Positions 711 through 9,261 of a stretch of 10,829 nucleotides of DNA are shown one piece after another. The notes under the pieces are model-generated. The model was not told the origin of the DNA and did not search any database. It saw nothing but the letters and a program-made list of their open reading frames with translations. The position numbers were made by a program, and so were the translations under genes. Source of the stretch: Holophagales bacterium. GTDB taxonomy: Bacteria > Acidobacteriota > Holophagae > Holophagales > Holophagaceae. How positions within the stretch are numbered: the first letter of the stretch is position 1; every line of letters begins with the position of its first letter. The stretch spans positions 1 through 10,829 of the forward strand of contig JAIRRD010000168.1 in NCBI GenBank assembly GCA_031256155.1, in the 5' to 3' direction.

Positions 711-1853
711 TTATGCCACATTGATTTTGTTTTTATACCAAACTTCCCATACACCGCCGTCAAACCGAACAAAATTCGCCGGTGCGCCAAACACACTGCT
801 GTCCAGTGTAACGATTGACCCGCCCACAGGTTTAGCGCTGCGAAAAATGTGCAAGACGTCCACCAAATTATTTTGAAGCATCTGTGAAGCCAGATTTGCC
901 CCGCCTTCAACCAATAATCTGCAAATGCCGCGAAGTGTTAATTCGTGCAACAGATGTCGCAAACTGCAACCTCCCGATCCGGGCGGCAGGCGGAGGTCTT
1001 CTACACCATCAATGGGCTCCGCTTCTTCGGTCAGAACTCTCATTGACAAATGACCGCTTGCGTTCTGCCACACACTGCGATTGGAACTTAATGACCCGTG
1101 ACTGTCCAGAACTATTCTGCGAAACACACGGTTGGGTTCAGCAGGTTCAAGCCACCTGTCAGTCAGTTGGGGATTGTCAACAGCCACCGTGTTTCGTCCC
1201 ACGAGTATCCCATCGCACACTCGTCTAAGTGCATGGGCAAGGCTCTGTGTCTTTGGTGTTGTTATATTTGTCGTAACACTTGTTGAGCCAATGCCATTGT
1301 CAGAGCCAAGCGCTAGTTTCAGCATTACCCAGGGAAGACCGGTCTGAATTGACTTGAAAAATGGGGCGTGTAAGTGCGCGCAAATATTTCCAAGGACACC
1401 TTCGACCACTTCAACGCCATTAGCGCCGAGTATCGCCAAACCGCCGCCGGCAACCCTTGGGTTGCGATCCCGGACACCGACAACAACTTTTTTTACGCCA
1501 GCCCGCAACAGCGCGTCTGTACACGGCGGTGTCCTGCCAAAGTGGCAGCATGGTTCCAATGTCACATACGCCGTTGCGCCGTCTGCTGATTCTCCGCGCT
1601 CTCTTGCGTCCTGGATTGCCAATATCTCGGCGTGGGAGCCGCCTGCACGTCTGTGCGCTCCCCTGCCGATGGAGCGTCCGTCTTTCATCAATACACAGCC
1701 GACAGAAGGGTTTGGGCTTGAGAGTCCGATTCCGGTCAAGCTTTCCCTGATTGCCTCAGCCATAGCCAGCTCATCGCCAGACAAGCACTCCGGCTTTGGC
1801 CATGGGCCGCCCGTAGCGTGTTCCCAGGCGGATTCCGGCGTTAAATCAGGCAC
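711..1853 (-). CDS. ribD: Bifunctional riboflavin deaminase/reductase RibD
   Basis: This 380-residue cytosolic protein catalyses the second and third steps of riboflavin synthesis from GTP: deamination of the pyrimidine ring, then NADPH-dependent reduction of the ribosyl chain. The N-terminal cytidine-deaminase-like domain carries SSPNPSVGCV (45-54), HAE (74-76, zinc His and catalytic Glu) and PCCHFGRTPPC (101-111), whose C102 and C111 are the other zinc ligands. The reductase domain (about 174-380) has MLKLALGSDN, DGILVGRNTVAVDNPQL (214-230) and LLVEGGANLASQML (313-326). The start is GTG at 1853, overlapping the ftsY stop by 8 bases, with GGAAGGG 7 bases upstream. The first internal ATG, at residue 31, would cut into the deaminase domain. 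It has about 20 more N-terminal residues than most RibD proteins. No other riboflavin gene is in the window. Confidence 0.96.
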   Translation of the reverse strand: MPDLTPESAWEHATGGPWPKPECLSGDELAMAEAIRESLTGIGLSSPNPSVGCVLMKDGRSIGRGAHRRAGGSHAEILAIQDARERGESADGATAYVTLEPCCHFGRTPPCTDALLRAGVKKVVVGVRDRNPRVAGGGLAILGANGVEVVEGVLGNICAHLHAPFFKSIQTGLPWVMLKLALGSDNGIGSTSVTTNITTPKTQSLAHALRRVCDGILVGRNTVAVDNPQLTDRWLEPAEPNRVFRRIVLDSHGSLSSNRSVWQNASGHLSMRVLTEEAEPIDGVEDLRLPPGSGGCSLRHLLHELTLRGICRLLVEGGANLASQMLQNNLVDVLHIFRSAKPVGGSIVTLDSSVFGAPANFVRFDGGVWEVWYKNKINVA

Positions 1854-2757
1854 TCAACAACCCTTCCACAAACGCTTCCGGGTCAAAGGGTATTAAATCA
1901 TCCACTTGTTCGCCCACACCCACAAAGGTAATCGGCAATTTTATTCTTTCCAGTATTGGGACTATTACTCCGCCCTTTGCGCTGCCATCCAGCTTTGTGA
2001 GTACAAGGTCCGTAACCCCTGCGGTCTGTTTAAAACTTTCGGCTTGCTGTATGCCATTCTGGCCGGTGGTGGCATCAAGAACCAATAAAACCCTGTGAGG
2101 TGCGCCTGGAATAACTTTTTGCAGACTCCGGCGTATTTTATCCAATTCACGCATCAAATGCTCTTTGTTGTGCAGTCTTCCCGCAGTGTCAATCAATACC
2201 CACGGGATTCCCTTTGCTTTTGCGGATGTGACTCCATCAAAGGCTATGGCTGCGGGGTCACCCCCCATCTGGTTGCGAATCACCGGAACACCGGCTCTTT
2301 CACCCCAAAGTTCCAACTGATCTATCGCGGCGGCTCTGAATGTGTCTCCAGCCACCACCAGGACATCCTGCTCCTCTGATTTCAAACGCGCCGCCAGTTT
2401 TCCAAGTGTTGTGGTTTTACCAACGCCATTGACCCCAACCAATAAAATCACTTGGGTGCCTACGGGCTGAAATGGGGATGCGGGCGCGTGAGATATGATT
2501 TTTAGCAGTTCATCCTTGATTAAGGCTCTGGGGTCAATTTCATTGGACTTTTGCATCTCAAACCGCAGTCTGTCCATCAAGCGCTGTGTTGCGTGAACAC
2601 CGAGATCGGCTTGAAGTAACATATCTTCTATTTCTAAAAGCTGATCCTCGTCCAACCGCTTCAATCCCAACAGCCGCTGCATTGGGCCAAGCGCCAATTC
2701 CTGTGTCCGCTGCAATCCCTTTTTAAATTTGGTGAATACTGAATCTAAAAACCCCAC
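1846..2757 (-). CDS. ftsY: Signal recognition particle receptor FtsY (NG domain)
   Basis: SRP-type GTPase of 303 residues that docks the SRP-ribosome-nascent chain complex at the inner membrane during co-translational membrane protein insertion. An N-domain helical bundle (about 1-95) is followed by the G domain with P-loop GVNGVGKTTT (108-117), DTFRAAAIDQL (138-148), DTAGR (190-194), TKLDGSAKGG (254-263) and the closing GVGEQVDDLIPFDPEAFVEGLL. It lacks the long acidic A domain of E. coli FtsY, so membrane binding probably depends on the amphipathic, Lys-rich start (MGFLDSVFTKFKKGLQ), as in other short FtsY proteins. The start is GTG at 2757 with GAGGT four bases upstream. It follows glnS by 36 bases and overlaps ribD by 8, which suggests translational coupling. 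Confidence 0.97.
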   Translation of the reverse strand: MGFLDSVFTKFKKGLQRTQELALGPMQRLLGLKRLDEDQLLEIEDMLLQADLGVHATQRLMDRLRFEMQKSNEIDPRALIKDELLKIISHAPASPFQPVGTQVILLVGVNGVGKTTTLGKLAARLKSEEQDVLVVAGDTFRAAAIDQLELWGERAGVPVIRNQMGGDPAAIAFDGVTSAKAKGIPWVLIDTAGRLHNKEHLMRELDKIRRSLQKVIPGAPHRVLLVLDATTGQNGIQQAESFKQTAGVTDLVLTKLDGSAKGGVIVPILERIKLPITFVGVGEQVDDLIPFDPEAFVEGLLSA

Positions 2758-2769
2758 GTTTACCTCACA

Positions 2770-2803
2770 AAAATCATATTTTTTTATTGTTTTCTATGAT
2801 TTT
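2770..2803. repeat. AT-rich inverted repeat at the glnS/ftsY junction
   Basis: AAAATCATA (2770-2778) and TATGATTTT (2795-2803) are perfect 9-base complements around a 16-base loop. The right arm covers the last codons and stop of glnS. The stem is weak (one G-C pair) and may be chance in AT-rich DNA. If real, it could be an mRNA processing or stability element between the two genes. It does not look like an intrinsic terminator. Confidence 0.25.
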
Positions 2804-4530
2804 GCCTCAATCTTTGCCCAACTGTCCTTTAGGCCGACAATTCTATTGAAAACCAGCAATTTGGGGGTTGAATCGCTGTCAACGGCAAAGTAGCCTGTTC
2901 TTTCAAATTGAAAGCGCTGTCCGTGTTGAGCATTTGCCAGGTTTGGTTCAAGTTTAGCACTGAGTGTTTCCAGACTCTGGCTGTTTACGCCTTGCCGCCA
3001 ATCCTGTCCTTCAGGTATGTCCATGGGGTCTTCTGCAAGAAATAGCTGGTCGTATAGTCTTAATTCCGCTTCAATCGCTTCTTCATCGCTGACCCAGTGA
3101 ATGGTACCTTTAATTTTTCGCCCATCGGCGGCATTTCCGCCTTTGGAATTTTCATCCCAGACACATTTAAGCTCTGTAATACCACCTTGAGAATCTTTGA
3201 CTACTTCCTGGCAACGAACAATAGCGGCACCCCGTAATCTCACTTCAGCGCCAGGGGCCAGGCGGAACCATTTTTTAGGGGGGGCTTCCCTGAAATCGTC
3301 CTGCTCAATCCACAACTCTTTTGTGAAGCGCAGCTTACGTACCCCTGATTCTGGTTTTTCATTGAAATGGGGGAGTTCTACATCAAAGGACTGTTCGGGT
3401 GTCATATTAGTAATGGTCAGTTTTAACGGACGCAGCACAGCCATTCTGCGCGGCGCGTTTGCTTCCAGGTCTTCGCGGACACAAGCTTCCAGCAGACTGG
3501 CTTCGGCTAGCATGTCTCGTTTTGCCACACCAACGCGCTCTGCAAAAGACCTTATGGCCTCGGGTGTGTAGCCTCTGCGGCGCAATCCGCATATAGTAGG
3601 CATTCTTGGGTCATCCCAGCCAGAAACTATGCCTTCCTGCACTAATTGAAGGAGGCGGCGCTTGGACATCACCGTATGTGTAAGGTTCAGTCTCGCAAAT
3701 TCGATTTGGCGCGGCAATGGCCGCTTGAAAAACTTTTCCTCAGTGTCTTGCTCCAAAAACCAATCGTAAAGTGGTCTGTGATCCTCAAATTCAAGTGTGC
3801 AAATGCTGTGCGTGATGTTTTCAATGGCATCGCAAATGCCGTGTGCGTAGTCGTACATGGGATATATGCGCCAATCGCTGCCGGTTCTGTGGTGATGAGC
3901 GCGGCGAATACGGTACATCAGGGGATCGCGCATATTCATGTTGGGATGCTGAACGTCTATCTTTGCCCTAAGAACACGGAAACCATCGGGAAATTCCCCG
4001 GCCCTCATGCGTCTGAAAAGGTTCAGACTCTCTTCCCGTGAGCGGTCTCTGTATGGGCTTGGATGCCCTGGGGTATAGAAGTTGCCGCGATATTCCTTTA
4101 TTTCAGATTCGCTTAAGTCGCATACAAAGGCTTTGCCATTCTGTATGAGATATTCCGCAAAGTCGTACAGCAGTGGAAAATAATCGCTCGCGTAGAACTC
4201 GCCTGCCCACGAAAATCCCATCCAGCGCACGTCTTCGCGTATTGAGTCAACATATTCCACGTCTTCTTTGACGGGATTTGTATCGTCAAAGCGTATATTT
4301 GTTTTCCCGCCATACTTTTTTGCCAGACCAAAGTTGATGCAAATGCTCTTGGCGTGTCCAATGTGTAAATAACCGTTAGGCTCCGGCGGAAAGCGCGTCA
4401 TTATGCGTCCGCTGTGCTTATTGGAAGCCAGATCGGCTTCCATGATTTCTTCTATGAAGTTCAGGGATTTTGGGGCAGATGGGGGCTGTTCGTGTGTCAT
4501 TAGTATGCCTATTTGAGTATTATCTTCCAT
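2794..4530 (-). CDS. glnS: Glutaminyl-tRNA synthetase
   Basis: Class Ic synthetase, 578 residues as called, that charges tRNA-Gln with glutamine. The Rossmann domain carries NFIEEIMEADL (24-34), FPPEPNGYLHIGHAKS (47-62, HIGH) and FRFDDTNP-type FDDTNPVKED (81-90). The tRNA-binding stem follows with YPMYDYAHGICDAIE and CTLEFEDHRPLYDW. VMSKRRL (287-293) is the KMSKS loop, and PRMPTICGLRRRGY (308-321) and the C-terminal beta-barrels end in TGYFAVD and FNRIVGLKDSW. These features distinguish it from GluRS, and it is full length for a bacterial GlnRS. The start is uncertain: ATG at 4530 lacks a clear ribosome site, while ATG at 4500 gives a tail like that of E. coli GlnRS and suits the candidate promoter. 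The gene follows the methyltransferase by 64 bases and precedes ftsY by 36. Confidence 0.96.
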   Translation of the reverse strand: MEDNTQIGILMTHEQPPSAPKSLNFIEEIMEADLASNKHSGRIMTRFPPEPNGYLHIGHAKSICINFGLAKKYGGKTNIRFDDTNPVKEDVEYVDSIREDVRWMGFSWAGEFYASDYFPLLYDFAEYLIQNGKAFVCDLSESEIKEYRGNFYTPGHPSPYRDRSREESLNLFRRMRAGEFPDGFRVLRAKIDVQHPNMNMRDPLMYRIRRAHHHRTGSDWRIYPMYDYAHGICDAIENITHSICTLEFEDHRPLYDWFLEQDTEEKFFKRPLPRQIEFARLNLTHTVMSKRRLLQLVQEGIVSGWDDPRMPTICGLRRRGYTPEAIRSFAERVGVAKRDMLAEASLLEACVREDLEANAPRRMAVLRPLKLTITNMTPEQSFDVELPHFNEKPESGVRKLRFTKELWIEQDDFREAPPKKWFRLAPGAEVRLRGAAIVRCQEVVKDSQGGITELKCVWDENSKGGNAADGRKIKGTIHWVSDEEAIEAELRLYDQLFLAEDPMDIPEGQDWRQGVNSQSLETLSAKLEPNLANAQHGQRFQFERTGYFAVDSDSTPKLLVFNRIVGLKDSWAKIEAKS

Positions 4531-4594: not shown

Positions 4595-5635
4595 TCATAA
4601 TGTACTCAATATTTGAGGTAATTGCAAAACCTCATTTTTGTTTGCGCCCTTCATTCCAGCTTCCGCTCCAAAACTGCGTCCGGCTTCATTATGGCGCAAT
4701 TCCTCAACTCCGTTGAAGTTGCAAAACAGAGGTTTTTCAAGAGGCTCTATTTGATATAAATCTTCAGTAATCAAGGGGATTTCCTGAGAGTCATTATTTC
4801 TACACCAATCCAAATTTTTGCTGATGAGCAATTCGTATATTTCTCTATGGTGTGTACTTTTCATCAAGACTAACTCAGTATCAAATTTATATTTGTTTGC
4901 CAGATCACTGACTTCAATATTATTATCATAAGTCATTAAGAAAGCACTCTTTGTTTGTGCAGTAATTTCAAACAATAGTTTGTGATCAAGTTCATTATAT
5001 TTATATAAGCGAGAACCTGGTTTTTTGCCGCATACTGTATAAGGTGGATCAAGGAAAATGGCCATGTTTTTTTGTGACATTATTTCATTTAAATAATTTA
5101 ATCCATTACCTTGCTTAAAAATGAGAATGTTTTTAATTAATTTAATGTCTTGTATGCGCTGACATAAAGTTGATGGGTACCACCTTGATTTTATACCTTT
5201 TCCTTTTTCGCCTTTATTTATAAAACTACTGCCATCTGCAAGAATACCTCCATGATTGATTCTATTTTTTAGAATTGTTCTAAACGCAAGTTCTTTTGTT
5301 GTTATTGCAGGTTTCATAATAACTTCTTTTGCGGTTTCAGTCGTTAGATTAAATGACAAAATACGATCACATAACCAATCTATATCTTTCCCAAGTATTG
5401 TTTCCCAAACCGCAGCCACATTTGGATCAATTTCCATCATTATTATTTGTTCTGCTAAATTCTCAAATGCAACAGTCAAACTGACTATGCCGCCACCAAG
5501 AAATGGCTCAACGAAATATTCTGGCTTAGTGCTGAAACTCTTCAACCAAGTCCTGATCCAAGGAATTAACCAAGTTTTTCCACCAGGATAACGGAAAGGG
5601 CTTCTTAAGGGAATTGATGCCACATTAACTATCAT
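4595..5635 (-). CDS. D12-class DNA adenine methyltransferase (modification subunit)
   Basis: 346 residues from the ATG at 5635, which overlaps the nuclease stop as ATGA; a TTG at 5647 is a weaker alternative. Motif order is that of the alpha (D12, Dam-like) N6-adenine methyltransferases: PFRYPGGK (13-20, motif X), FVEPFLGGG (41-49, motif I, S-adenosylmethionine binding), a target-recognition stretch including KGIKSRWYPSTLCQRI, and catalytic FLDPPYT (194-200, motif IV). HHREIYELLISKNLDW marks the usual end of the fold. It should protect host DNA by methylating adenine in the target of the adjacent nuclease; both genes are read as one unit. The last roughly 40 residues are unusual: their DNA is GC-richer and carries direct and inverted repeats that suggest a small insertion which changed the C-terminus. 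The catalytic core looks intact. Confidence 0.92.
   Translation of the reverse strand: MIVNVASIPLRSPFRYPGGKTWLIPWIRTWLKSFSTKPEYFVEPFLGGGIVSLTVAFENLAEQIIMMEIDPNVAAVWETILGKDIDWLCDRILSFNLTTETAKEVIMKPAITTKELAFRTILKNRINHGGILADGSSFINKGEKGKGIKSRWYPSTLCQRIQDIKLIKNILIFKQGNGLNYLNEIMSQKNMAIFLDPPYTVCGKKPGSRLYKYNELDHKLLFEITAQTKSAFLMTYDNNIEVSDLANKYKFDTELVLMKSTHHREIYELLISKNLDWCRNNDSQEIPLITEDLYQIEPLEKPLFCNFNGVEELRHNEAGRSFGAEAGMKGANKNEVLQLPQILSTL
4622..4727. mobile_element. Possible 88-base inserted element with 9-base direct repeats
   Basis: TTGCAAAAC occurs at 4622-4630 and again at 4719-4727. Between them, 88 bases are clearly GC-richer than the surrounding gene (32 of 60 in 4641-4700). The insert holds the inverted pair TTGCGCC (4642-4648) / GGCGCAA (4693-4699). 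A longer imperfect pair straddles its edge: TTGAGGTAATTGC (4613-4625) / GCAATTCCTCAA (4696-4707), with one bulged base. Removing 97 bases (insert plus one repeat) lets the methyltransferase end as EKPLFCNYLKY with a stop at 4608-4606. This is the pattern of a small non-autonomous element with target duplication. No clear terminal inverted repeats are seen at the exact ends, and no known family is recognised. Confidence 0.45.
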
Positions 5636-6537
5636 TTCGGCATCCAATCTGTCTGAAAGTGGTCAATCAATGGCGCATCTGGTTTATGCTCTAATCGCTC
5701 ATCTAACTTTGCCTGTAAGATGTCAATAAATTCTTCAATATTTCCGGCATCAGATTTTGTAATTTTGTCCAATGCTTGTTCAAATTTTGTATAAACTATT
5801 TTTGTTAATTCCATATCATATTTATTATTTGACAAATTATATTTAATATCGTAAATTAGCCATGCAATGTCGGCATTTTCTTTATCTATTTCTTCTAGTT
5901 TTGGTAGCGTTTGAAAAAAAACAAAATCCATAGCAACTGCGAGTTTTTTCTTCCAAGCCTTTAATATACCACCCTTAAAAATTAGTTGTGGAGCCAATCG
6001 TTTTCTTGATGAAGAAAGAAAATCTGGTCTGGGATAACTCGTCTGTTTAGTCCAATCCATTTGGGCATTATTTTCGGGGTCATTAATGTAGTAGTTAAAT
6101 GGATTACGAATATTTCCAGATATGTAAACAGCTTGGATTTCCAATGCACCAAAATCAGTAACGCACCCTGATTCATCATAAGCAACCAATACAACGTCAA
6201 TATTGCCAGCAGATTGACCATGTTTATCTTTTAATTTTACTTCAGTAAGTGATGTCCAATTTGAATTGGGTGAAAAAAGAAATCCTGCTGCAGCATCCAC
6301 AATCATCCAGTTTTGTCTGAAACGTATTGGGCAAGTTATAGAAATACCAGCATCCGAAAATATTGAGCATGTTCCTAATGGATCATTCGCTTTATCTTTT
6401 GTGCAATTTGGCACCCTATTGTTGTAGGGACATAGGCGTTTGGCGCGAAAACGCTTTGCTTCGGCTGAAAAATTATTTACAGGAAAACCAAACACTTCAG
6501 CTAATGGGTGAGTAATTGGCTTGGTTTGTTTTTGCAT
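5632..6537 (-). CDS. NotI-family type II restriction endonuclease
   Basis: 301 residues, predicted to cut unmethylated foreign DNA. Four cysteines, C36 (RLCPYNN), C45 (VPNCTKD), C57 (LGTCSIF) and C69 (ITCPIRF), match the Cys4 iron-binding fold of NotI. The nuclease core follows: E99, D114 in GNIDVVLV, and E133/Q135 in GALEIQAVYISGN. In NotI, as I recall it, the corresponding residues are E145, D160, E182 and Q184, with LEIQ conserved. It is shorter than NotI (about 380 residues). The C-terminal part is Lys- and Glu-rich and helical, ending in DHFQTDWMPK. The start is ATG at 6537 with AGGA 8 bases upstream. It lies 35 bases after gltX and overlaps the methyltransferase by 4 (ATGA). No controller gene is present. 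The family call rests on motifs; the specificity is unknown. Confidence 0.88.
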   Translation of the reverse strand: MQKQTKPITHPLAEVFGFPVNNFSAEAKRFRAKRLCPYNNRVPNCTKDKANDPLGTCSIFSDAGISITCPIRFRQNWMIVDAAAGFLFSPNSNWTSLTEVKLKDKHGQSAGNIDVVLVAYDESGCVTDFGALEIQAVYISGNIRNPFNYYINDPENNAQMDWTKQTSYPRPDFLSSSRKRLAPQLIFKGGILKAWKKKLAVAMDFVFFQTLPKLEEIDKENADIAWLIYDIKYNLSNNKYDMELTKIVYTKFEQALDKITKSDAGNIEEFIDILQAKLDERLEHKPDAPLIDHFQTDWMPK

Positions 6538-6572: not shown

Positions 6573-8072
6573 TTACATTAACTGTGGTAGCCATCTCTTC
6601 AGCCTTGAGCGCACTTCCTCAACGCCCAACAAATACAGCGTATCGAATATACCGGGACTTATGGGTTTACCGCACAGCGCCACGCGGAGAGCCTGGGCTA
6701 AATCTTTGGTTTTTAGTCCGTGTCGCTCAAGTATTTCATTGAATGTGGTATGCAGGGGATCGTGTTGGTAATCAGACAGTGCCGCGATTTCCAGGAGGGC
6801 TGGTTTGACAGCCGATGTCATGAATTTATCCGCGCCTTCAAATTCTGTGGGGGCAGACCAGCAAAAGGCCAGCGAATTTGCCATTTCAACAAGAGACTTG
6901 CCTTTTTGTGTGGCTGTTATAGCCACTTTCTTCCATTCCTCAGACTTGGTATCCCACGCATCTGGCATGAACGGGCGCAGGTGCGGCTCAAGCTCTTGCC
7001 ATGTGTATCGCTGAATTAGTTTTTGATTAATCCAGTTGAGCTTGTCCATGTCAAATCTGGCTGGACTTTTTTGTATGTCATCCAAATCAAAAAGTTCAGT
7101 CATCTGGGTATCGGTCAGAATTTCTTCTTCCGCGCTCTCCAGCGCTTTGCCGTCAACTTTGGGAGTCCAGGACAACCTGGCGAGCGCCAAGCGTATGGCG
7201 CTTGGCAAAAGTCCCAAGGCCTGATATTCAGTAATGCTGGTTGCTCCGTGTCGTTTACTGAGTTTTGCCCCATCCTTGCCGAGGATCATCGGCACATGGG
7301 CGAAAACCGGAGGTTCAAGGCCAAGGGCTTGATATAGAGCTATTTGTTTTGGCGTATTGGCTGCGTGGTCATCTCCGCGTATTACGTGGGTAACTTCCAT
7401 GCTTGTATCGTCTATAACCACGCAGAAATTATAGGTCGGTACACCGATCTGGCCGACTTCGCCGGTACGGGCAACTATCCAGTCATCAAGTGTTGGGGCA
7501 GGGAAGTCTATGCGACCTTTGATACGGTCGTGAAGGACAATACAGCCGTTTTCCAGCCATGCCTCATCGCCTGCGGGCATTTTAAGGCGTACGGAAAAGG
7601 GCTGACTGGCATCATGGTTTTTATCGCGGCATCCTTTACCCGCATCCAGTCCGCGGTTGTACTGAAATGGAACACCTTTGTCGTCCGCCATTTTTCGCCT
7701 GGTTTCCAGGTCTTCTTTAGTGCAGCGACAGCGATATGCCAAACCTTGACTGAGCAATTTTTCTACGGCTGGTTTGTAATGGGATTCCATACGCTGCATT
7801 TGTCTGTAAGGGCCGTTTGAACCTATCCATTTTAGCGGATTGCCCACCACAGGGCCTTCGTCCCAGTTCAAGCCGCACCAGCTCATTCCTTCTTCAATAA
7901 TGCGTATGTTGTCATCAGTGCTACGGTCTAAGTCTGTGTCTTCTATACGCAGAATGAAACGACCTCCATGTTTTCTTGCATAGAGCCAGCAAAAAAGAGC
8001 AGTGCGAACACCGCCTATGTGCAACATTCCGGTTGGGGAAGGGGCAAAACGAGTCACAACTTGTCTGGGCAT
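6573..8072 (-). CDS. gltX: Glutamyl-tRNA synthetase
   Basis: Class Ic synthetase, 499 residues, that charges tRNA-Glu. It has VTRFAPSPTGMLHIGGVRTALF (start of the Rossmann fold; HIGG at 18-21), LRIEDTDLDRS (41-51), CRC at 115-117 followed by CRDKNH (148-153), a plausible zinc-binding arrangement, then PTYNFCVVIDD (212-222), HVIRGDDHAANTP (229-241) and the KMSKS loop KLSKRHG (270-276). The C-terminal helical anticodon-binding domain runs to the end, and the length is normal. The start is ATG at 8072 with GAGGT five bases upstream. It begins 22 bases after the adk stop. Since glnS is also present, this GluRS need not misacylate tRNA-Gln, though gatCAB elsewhere cannot be excluded. Confidence 0.97.
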   Translation of the reverse strand: MPRQVVTRFAPSPTGMLHIGGVRTALFCWLYARKHGGRFILRIEDTDLDRSTDDNIRIIEEGMSWCGLNWDEGPVVGNPLKWIGSNGPYRQMQRMESHYKPAVEKLLSQGLAYRCRCTKEDLETRRKMADDKGVPFQYNRGLDAGKGCRDKNHDASQPFSVRLKMPAGDEAWLENGCIVLHDRIKGRIDFPAPTLDDWIVARTGEVGQIGVPTYNFCVVIDDTSMEVTHVIRGDDHAANTPKQIALYQALGLEPPVFAHVPMILGKDGAKLSKRHGATSITEYQALGLLPSAIRLALARLSWTPKVDGKALESAEEEILTDTQMTELFDLDDIQKSPARFDMDKLNWINQKLIQRYTWQELEPHLRPFMPDAWDTKSEEWKKVAITATQKGKSLVEMANSLAFCWSAPTEFEGADKFMTSAVKPALLEIAALSDYQHDPLHTTFNEILERHGLKTKDLAQALRVALCGKPISPGIFDTLYLLGVEEVRSRLKRWLPQLM

Positions 8073-8094: not shown

Positions 8095-9261
8095 CTACGA
8101 AATCCAGACTGTTTTATCCAAAATGCTCGCAAGTCTGGCAAATACCTCTTCAAAGGTACCTGAACCATCCACTTTCGTCACTCCATGTATCTGGGCGTAT
8201 TTTTCAATGACAGGCACAGTTTTGCTCTCGTGTTCCTGTAATCGCTGAACAATTTTTGCCGTTGTAGAGTCGTATGGCATACACGTATCGGTTTTGCTGC
8301 GGGCATCCAATCGCTTTATTAATTCCAGCGTTGACACTTCAATGTCAATAATTCGAGTGATGTTAGTGCCGCGCTTGCGCAGCAGTCCATCAAGTATGTA
8401 TGACTGAACAAGCGTCCTTGGGAATCCTTTAAAAATAAAACCTCGGACATCTTTTGATTGTTCCAGTTTCTGCTCTATCAAAGGCACTACTATTTCATCT
8501 GAAACAAGTGCGCCGCTCTCATACAGTTCCTGAATTTTTTTCCCAACCGGAGTCTGGCGGGCAATCTCGGCATCCAGCATTGGTCCGGTTGCCAAGTATT
8601 CCAATTCAAAATGCTTTGCCAGTGCTTTGCCCTGAGAACCGCGCCCTGAACCTGGATATCCAAATATAACAATATTTATGGGATATTTGTGAATTTCATC
8701 TTTTACAGCGGCTCTTACGTCATCGCACACTTTTTCAACAGAGTTTCCGCCATTAACAGCTCTGTAAATACCTTTGTCTTTGTAAAACTGCAGCACCGGC
8801 AGTGTTTTTTCATGGTATTCACGCAGACGGTTGAGTATTACGGTTTCGTTATCATCAGTGCGACCAGAGGTAATACCTCGCTTCAGCAAACGGGCCACAG
8901 ACTCTTCCTCGTCAACTTCAAGGCTGATAAGGCAGCTCAGCGAAGTATTCAGCTTGTTCATCAAACCTTCAAGGATATAGCATTGGATGTATGTCCGCGG
9001 GAATCCATCAAACAGGAAACCATTGGCTTCGGGATGTTCCGTAATGGTGTTTTCAATAATCTGAACAATTATTTCATCTGGAACCAAGCCGCCGGCCGAA
9101 ATAATGCTCTTGGCCTCCAGCCCCAATTTGCTCCCCGCAGAAAGCTCCCTGCGCAACAAATCGCCCGTTGAAATGTAGTGAAGGTTGAAAGCCTTTATAA
9201 GAGCTTCTGATTGAGTACCCTTACCTGCACCGGGCGGACCAAACAGTGCGATGTTTATCAT
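8095..9261 (-). CDS. adk: Tandem adenylate kinase: active N-half fused to degenerate C-half
   Basis: 388 residues, twice the usual length. Residues 1-190 are a complete short-LID adenylate kinase (ATP + AMP = 2 ADP): P-loop GPPGAGKGTQ (8-17), STGDLLRREL (31-40), GFLFDGFPRT (81-90) and LID KRGITSGRTDDNE (127-139). Residues 195-388 repeat the fold with key positions changed: GYPGSGRGSQ (201-210, Lys to Arg at 207), TGPMLDAEI (225-233, the AMP-site Arg replaced by Asp230), FIFKGFPRT (275-283, Asp to Lys) and a LID without SGRxDD. The second half is probably inactive or altered, perhaps structural or regulatory. It is a single open frame with the ATG at 9261 preceded by GAGAGG at five bases. It is the first gene of the minus-strand run, ahead of gltX. 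The split of function between halves is inference. Confidence 0.93.
   Translation of the reverse strand: MINIALFGPPGAGKGTQSEALIKAFNLHYISTGDLLRRELSAGSKLGLEAKSIISAGGLVPDEIIVQIIENTITEHPEANGFLFDGFPRTYIQCYILEGLMNKLNTSLSCLISLEVDEEESVARLLKRGITSGRTDDNETVILNRLREYHEKTLPVLQFYKDKGIYRAVNGGNSVEKVCDDVRAAVKDEIHKYPINIVIFGYPGSGRGSQGKALAKHFELEYLATGPMLDAEIARQTPVGKKIQELYESGALVSDEIVVPLIEQKLEQSKDVRGFIFKGFPRTLVQSYILDGLLRKRGTNITRIIDIEVSTLELIKRLDARSKTDTCMPYDSTTAKIVQRLQEHESKTVPVIEKYAQIHGVTKVDGSGTFEEVFARLASILDKTVWIS

Follow-up and report, generated by a model that had tools for sequence, protein, structure and literature searches.

The two adjacent genes described here code for a NotI-family nuclease and a D12-class DNA methyltransferase, and it is very probable that they make up a complete Type II restriction-modification system of the NotI fold, whose two enzymes would share an adenine-containing site other than GCGGCCGC. 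They lie in the window, i.e., the whole stretch of 10,829 nucleotides that was analysed. The family, the fold, the intact motifs, the overlap of the two genes and their conserved pairing were all observed. By analogy with the families to which the two proteins belong, the nuclease, expected to combine a PD-(D/E)XK core with a Cys4 metal knot, would dimerise on a palindromic site and cut unmethylated foreign DNA in a defence role; the co-translated D12 enzyme would methylate adenine at N6, and this mark, if placed within the nuclease's own site as the families and the conserved linkage suggest, would protect the host. The system is of an already known kind, in which a NotI-family nuclease is coupled to an adenine methylase, and the window holds a further member of a widespread branch.

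The nuclease, the methyltransferase and their genomic setting

Both open reading frames were found on the minus strand where the original prediction had placed them. The nuclease gene (5632..6537) codes for 301 amino acids and matches the Pfam NotI family (PF12183) with 200.4 bits (cut-off 22; E 3.6e-59), and the comparison of its predicted structure with NotI (PDB 3bvq, 3c25), the check that the original prediction had proposed, revealed the same fold at 14% sequence identity. The hallmarks that had been read from the sequence are all present: the four cysteines C36, C45, C57 and C69 of the putative metal site (6331..6432, minus strand), retained in 107 of 107 aligned sequences, and the catalytic residues E99, D114, E133 and Q135 (6133..6243, minus strand), which correspond to E145, D160, E182 and Q184 of NotI as counted off the 3bvq alignment. 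These eight positions are invariant in a 30-sequence alignment, and they are also kept in the 107-sequence one (assembled after dropping nine short fragments and leaving out loci L278-L298), with the single exception of L243, which is aligned with a proline at E99 and has a glutamate two residues earlier. Within the Cys4 loop, residues 42-44 and 46-48 have a pLDDT below 50 in the model. Passages of a review (PMC4081073) report that NotI has a glutamine instead of the usual lysine at its catalytic site and that its Cys4 site contains iron; NotI cuts rarely and is unusual in its metal-binding Cys4 motif, and the title of the NotI structure paper, which the same review cites, has the Cys4 fold involved in DNA binding. 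The two nucleases differ in the stretch following the catalytic EIQ (AVYISG in the window, TMDFHG in NotI), in the class of the partner, which in the window is an adenine methylase, and in length. The description of the window nuclease as compact holds with respect to NotI (383 amino acids) only, since about 300 residues are normal for its branch (280-309 amino acids in 111 of the 120 best matches).

The second gene codes for a predicted N6-adenine DNA methyltransferase of 346 amino acids if translation starts at the ATG (4595..5635, minus strand); the open reading frame list gives a version starting at TTG (4595-5647). The ATG, which overlaps the stop codon of the nuclease gene, is more probably the start. 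The TGA of the former gene and the ATG of the latter share an ATGA (5632..5635, minus strand; junction ...CCGAAATGATAG...), an arrangement that suggests the translational coupling of the two genes. The partner class proposed at the outset is borne out by a match of 47 bits to the Pfam family MethyltransfD12 (PF02086; cut-off 22) and by the motif IV DPPY (residues 196-199; 5039..5050, minus strand), invariant in an alignment of 23 sequences. A plain Dam function is unlikely, the score against the dam subfamily (TIGR00571) being 37.4 bits with a cut-off of 114.85; E. coli Dam and Mcbe1 (PDB 7m6b), both D12 methyltransferases, are 18-22% identical to the window enzyme.

The C-terminal portion of the methyltransferase (about 46 residues) is supplied by a copy of a dispersed genomic repeat (4612..4762). 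Counting this copy, the draft genome has 13 matches, the other 12 being 30-152 bases long and 72-90% identical. The family domain ahead of this tail is intact in sequence, and the repeat-derived extension could harm the enzyme. It is possible, in fact, to read the locus as a decaying system, in which insertion of the repeat into the methyltransferase gene, at its 3' end, impaired the enzyme, and either the nuclease has fallen silent or the two genes are being lost. In agreement with this, the close homologues end at about 300 amino acids without any such tail, the extra residues have a pLDDT of about 30 in the model, and the repeat recurs at 12 further places of the genome; however, all motifs and both reading frames are intact, the added tail begins only after the end of the family domain, and the loss of methylase activity next to an active nuclease is expected to be lethal. 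We regard decay as quite unlikely, and an intact system as the preferred reading of the locus.

The surroundings of the pair consist of ordinary housekeeping genes on the minus strand. Upstream, separated by 35 bases, lies gltX (6573..8072, minus strand; Pfam tRNA-synt_1c, Anticodon_2), and 64 bases downstream lies glnS (2794..4530, minus strand; Pfam tRNA-synt_1c, tRNA-synt_1c_C, C2). The window also contains, at 8095-9261 (minus strand), a gene for a 388-residue protein with two tandem adenylate kinase domains (two PF00406 stretches). A binning artefact was rejected on account of the gltX of this contig, which is 83% identical to that of G001, a genome of the same genus. In a search of 100 related genomes, the pair was found in the window's own genome only, which is consistent with a horizontal gain, and the two genes probably entered the gltX-glnS gap by horizontal transfer. 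In G001 the same gap harbors, in place of the pair, a gene for an EVE-HNH protein of 451 amino acids (L206:3109-4464, contig C57), probably a modification-dependent nuclease. Hence, in the two genomes compared, i.e., the window's own and G001, one gap of the same genus hosts two different nuclease cargoes, and it is possible that it represents a small defence slot. In a further genome (G002) the contig ends within glnS, and in another one (G003) a match to gltX was not found.

Distribution of the pair and partner classes of NotI-fold nucleases

The rarity implied by the original prediction does not stand: judging from the sequence searches, the pair is not special to the window but one of thousands. 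As many as 5928 relatives of the nuclease (90% clusters) were counted among 6767 candidates, and at least 7607 relatives of the methylase among 8000 scored. In the best 80 of 365 confirmed genome loci, a D12 gene lies directly downstream of the nuclease gene, on the same strand, in 79 cases (in L051 and L057 it is cut by the end of the contig), and in the 80th locus (L030) the contig ends 33 bases past the nuclease match. The expected linkage of the two genes is in full agreement with this finding and with the ATGA overlap; linkage and co-inheritance of this kind are the mark of a Type II system. Judging from the record titles, the hosts of these 80 loci include Chloroflexota, Planctomycetota, Acidobacteria, Verrucomicrobia, cyanobacteria, Nitrospira and one Methanosaeta assembly; besides bacteria, the branch has members in at least one metagenome assembly of an archaeon (L075).

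Plasmids also carry the pair, 11 plasmid records matching the nuclease. The plasmid pTbrSNM4-1c of Thermus brockianus has the same two genes, overlapping and in the same order, with a nuclease 55% identical to that of the window; they are annotated, as are similar pairs, as 'NotI family restriction endonuclease' and 'DNA adenine methylase'. With respect to this plasmid, the window pair is not surrounded by plasmid genes and has a methylase with an extended tail; otherwise, nothing essential differs. The plasmids of Achromobacter and Aeromonas veronii (loci L084 and L086) encode nucleases that are 27-30% identical to the window's, with a D12 partner at 43-44%, and those of Sedimenticola and Cronobacter encode a C5-cytosine methylase instead of a D12 enzyme. 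The methylase search revealed a D12 gene on three Variovorax, a Burkholderia and an Aeromonas caviae plasmid; for the Paraburkholderia plasmid, D12 was not among the 40 matches listed. No match to the nuclease was found in phage records, and none was confirmed in viral contigs by a single-sequence scan, which reaches close relatives only; the methylase matched 20 phage records, all below 31% identity. The two best plasmid matches of the methylase outside the nuclease-matching records, on the Bdellovibrio plasmid pBdHM1 (L276) and on a Deinococcus plasmid (L277), are 49% and 41% identical to the query P0178, respectively. The nuclease search revealed no NotI-family gene in either, and no restriction gene was recognised there, four of the neighbouring proteins having been scanned. 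One neighbour of the Bdellovibrio methylase is a PHP/DNA polymerase III alpha-like protein.

Identity to the window pair could be measured for both genes in 111 of 136 loci. The 101 loci whose nuclease is at least 50% identical to the window's have medians of 60% for the nuclease and 51% for the methylase; in the eight most distant loci the values are 27-31% and 43-47%, respectively, and two loci fall between the near and the distant nuclease groups. Between the subgroups, therefore, the methylase is far better conserved than the nuclease, which fits the idea that two diverged nuclease subgroups serve a shared target; an exchange of partners is a possible alternative explanation.

PF12183 was also sought in three phylum samples, with carriers in 27 of 301 genomes from the phylum of G103 (Chloroflexota by record title), 11 of 297 from that of the window (a count that takes in the window's own genome) and 10 of 294 from that of G107 (a Planctomycetota record). 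This search yielded 52 loci, four of them in the already known carrier genomes G000, G103, G105 and G107. The partner, whose class was assigned by similarity to known partners, is a D12 enzyme in 34 loci (18 of 30, 7 of 11 and 9 of 11 in the three samples, in the above order), a beta-class N4/N6 methylase in eight (six, two and none) and a C5 methylase in two (one, one and none); in the remaining eight (five, one and two), mostly short contigs or split fragments, no partner is visible. All 34 D12 loci score above 68 bits against PF12183, and the 10 loci with another visible partner score below 40.

The nucleases with a beta-class partner form a separate branch (L246, L247, L249, L251, L252, L255, L286 and L287). 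The motif TSPPYW is present in the methylases of the first six of these loci, and the one beta-class member tested (the partner in L247) belongs to PF01555; on the basis of motif rules, these enzymes might produce m4C. This branch is apparently a third kind of NotI-fold system. In L246 the nuclease gene (1345-3143) contains an in-frame TGA, and it is flanked by the beta-class methylase gene and, on the other side, by a different D12 methylase gene.

A phylogenetic tree was constructed with 40 nucleases: 18 from genome loci (every fourth place, 20 taken, two of which were too short), five from plasmid loci, 16 from the phylum samples and that of the window. Its analysis revealed that the five beta-class nucleases group together (99/98), as do the C5-partnered nucleases of Cronobacter and L250 (99/98). 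The C5-partnered nuclease of Sedimenticola sits on a long branch on the D12 side of the tree, and a placement warning was raised for this sequence as well as for L243 and L242. The class of the partner largely tracks the branch of the nuclease, Sedimenticola being either one exception or one misplacement, and it is an imperfect marker of the branch. The solved NotI was found in the PDB set by the single Cronobacter nuclease and by a profile of the Cronobacter and L250 sequences (E 3.4e-8); in the same set it was not found from the window's branch (with either a single query or a D12-type profile), from the profile of the beta-class branch or from the single Sedimenticola nuclease. Since a sequence search from the window's branch misses NotI, the kinship of this branch with NotI rests on the Pfam family and on the fold.

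The recognition site

Methylation at N6 requires an adenine; since both strands of GCGGCCGC lack this base, a matched pair must read another site. This argument of the original prediction is logically sound; it is strengthened by the pairing in 79 of 80 loci and by the retrieval of NotI from C5-partnered, Cronobacter-type nucleases and not from the window's branch. The opposite idea, that the nuclease cuts GCGGCCGC as NotI does, next to an unrelated D12 neighbour and with the host protected by a cytosine methylase encoded elsewhere, can appeal to the identity of the fold and to the depletion of GCGGCCGC in carrier DNA (144 occurrences seen, 353 expected), although palindromes are depleted there in general. 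It must, however, face the conserved adjacency and overlap of the nuclease and D12 genes, an identity to NotI of only 14% and the same pattern of retrieval from the PDB set, and we consider it highly improbable.

The original prediction also proposed a new specificity, and in this respect only part of it stands: a matched pair would read a site other than GCGGCCGC, but the analysis yielded no site, and one that is already known and contains adenine is possible. Palindromes of 6 and 8 bases were counted in carrier DNA only, i.e., in six carrier genomes (2.0 Mb), the 80 carrier loci (1.24 Mb) and 16 further carriers from the phylum of G103 (0.33 Mb); those of 4 bases were counted in the first two sets. 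As a group, hexamer palindromes are depleted (mean log ratio over all 64, -0.52), the lowest being GGCGCC, GTCGAC, CAGCTG, GGGCCC, CGGCCG and GGATCC, and the extent of depletion varies widely among carrier genomes (from 0.01 to 0.90 for GTCGAC), where other systems may be at work in each. No adenine-containing site was singled out by palindrome avoidance within this carrier DNA. We give even chances to the possibility that the pair is an ordinary isoschizomer system, reading an adenine-containing palindrome that is already known as the target of other nuclease families. Most of the Type II systems that come to light through their sequence are isoschizomers, and many adenine-containing palindromes (GTCGAC, CAGCTG and GGATCC, for instance) are depleted in the carrier DNA; against this, the counts point to no one site in particular. 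Such a possibility is compatible with the preferred reading, that is, a complete system sharing an adenine-containing site, and conflicts only with the idea of a new specificity.

Possible specificity change within the NotI fold

In our literature searches, whose scope lay outside REBASE, nothing was found on NotI-family members other than NotI; a word search revealed no whole-word mention of NotI in PMC9516812 and PMC12294265, and the name is absent from passages of PMC3526280 (as a whole word) and of PMC6329791. A branch paired with adenine methylation should read a site other than GCGGCCGC. We can speculate, with considerable doubt, that this very large branch of the NotI fold, protected by m6A, recognises a site unlisted for Type II enzymes and that its two nuclease subgroups, only about 28% identical but with well-conserved D12 partners, probably share one target. 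With the C5 and beta-class methylases of the other branches, a single Cys4 fold would then have been adapted to three or more kinds of protected site. The way in which NotI-fold nucleases sort with the class of their partner methylase represents a natural comparison for the change of specificity, and, if the site of the branch were both long and new, the nuclease would make a useful tool enzyme and reveal how specificity changes within the NotI fold.
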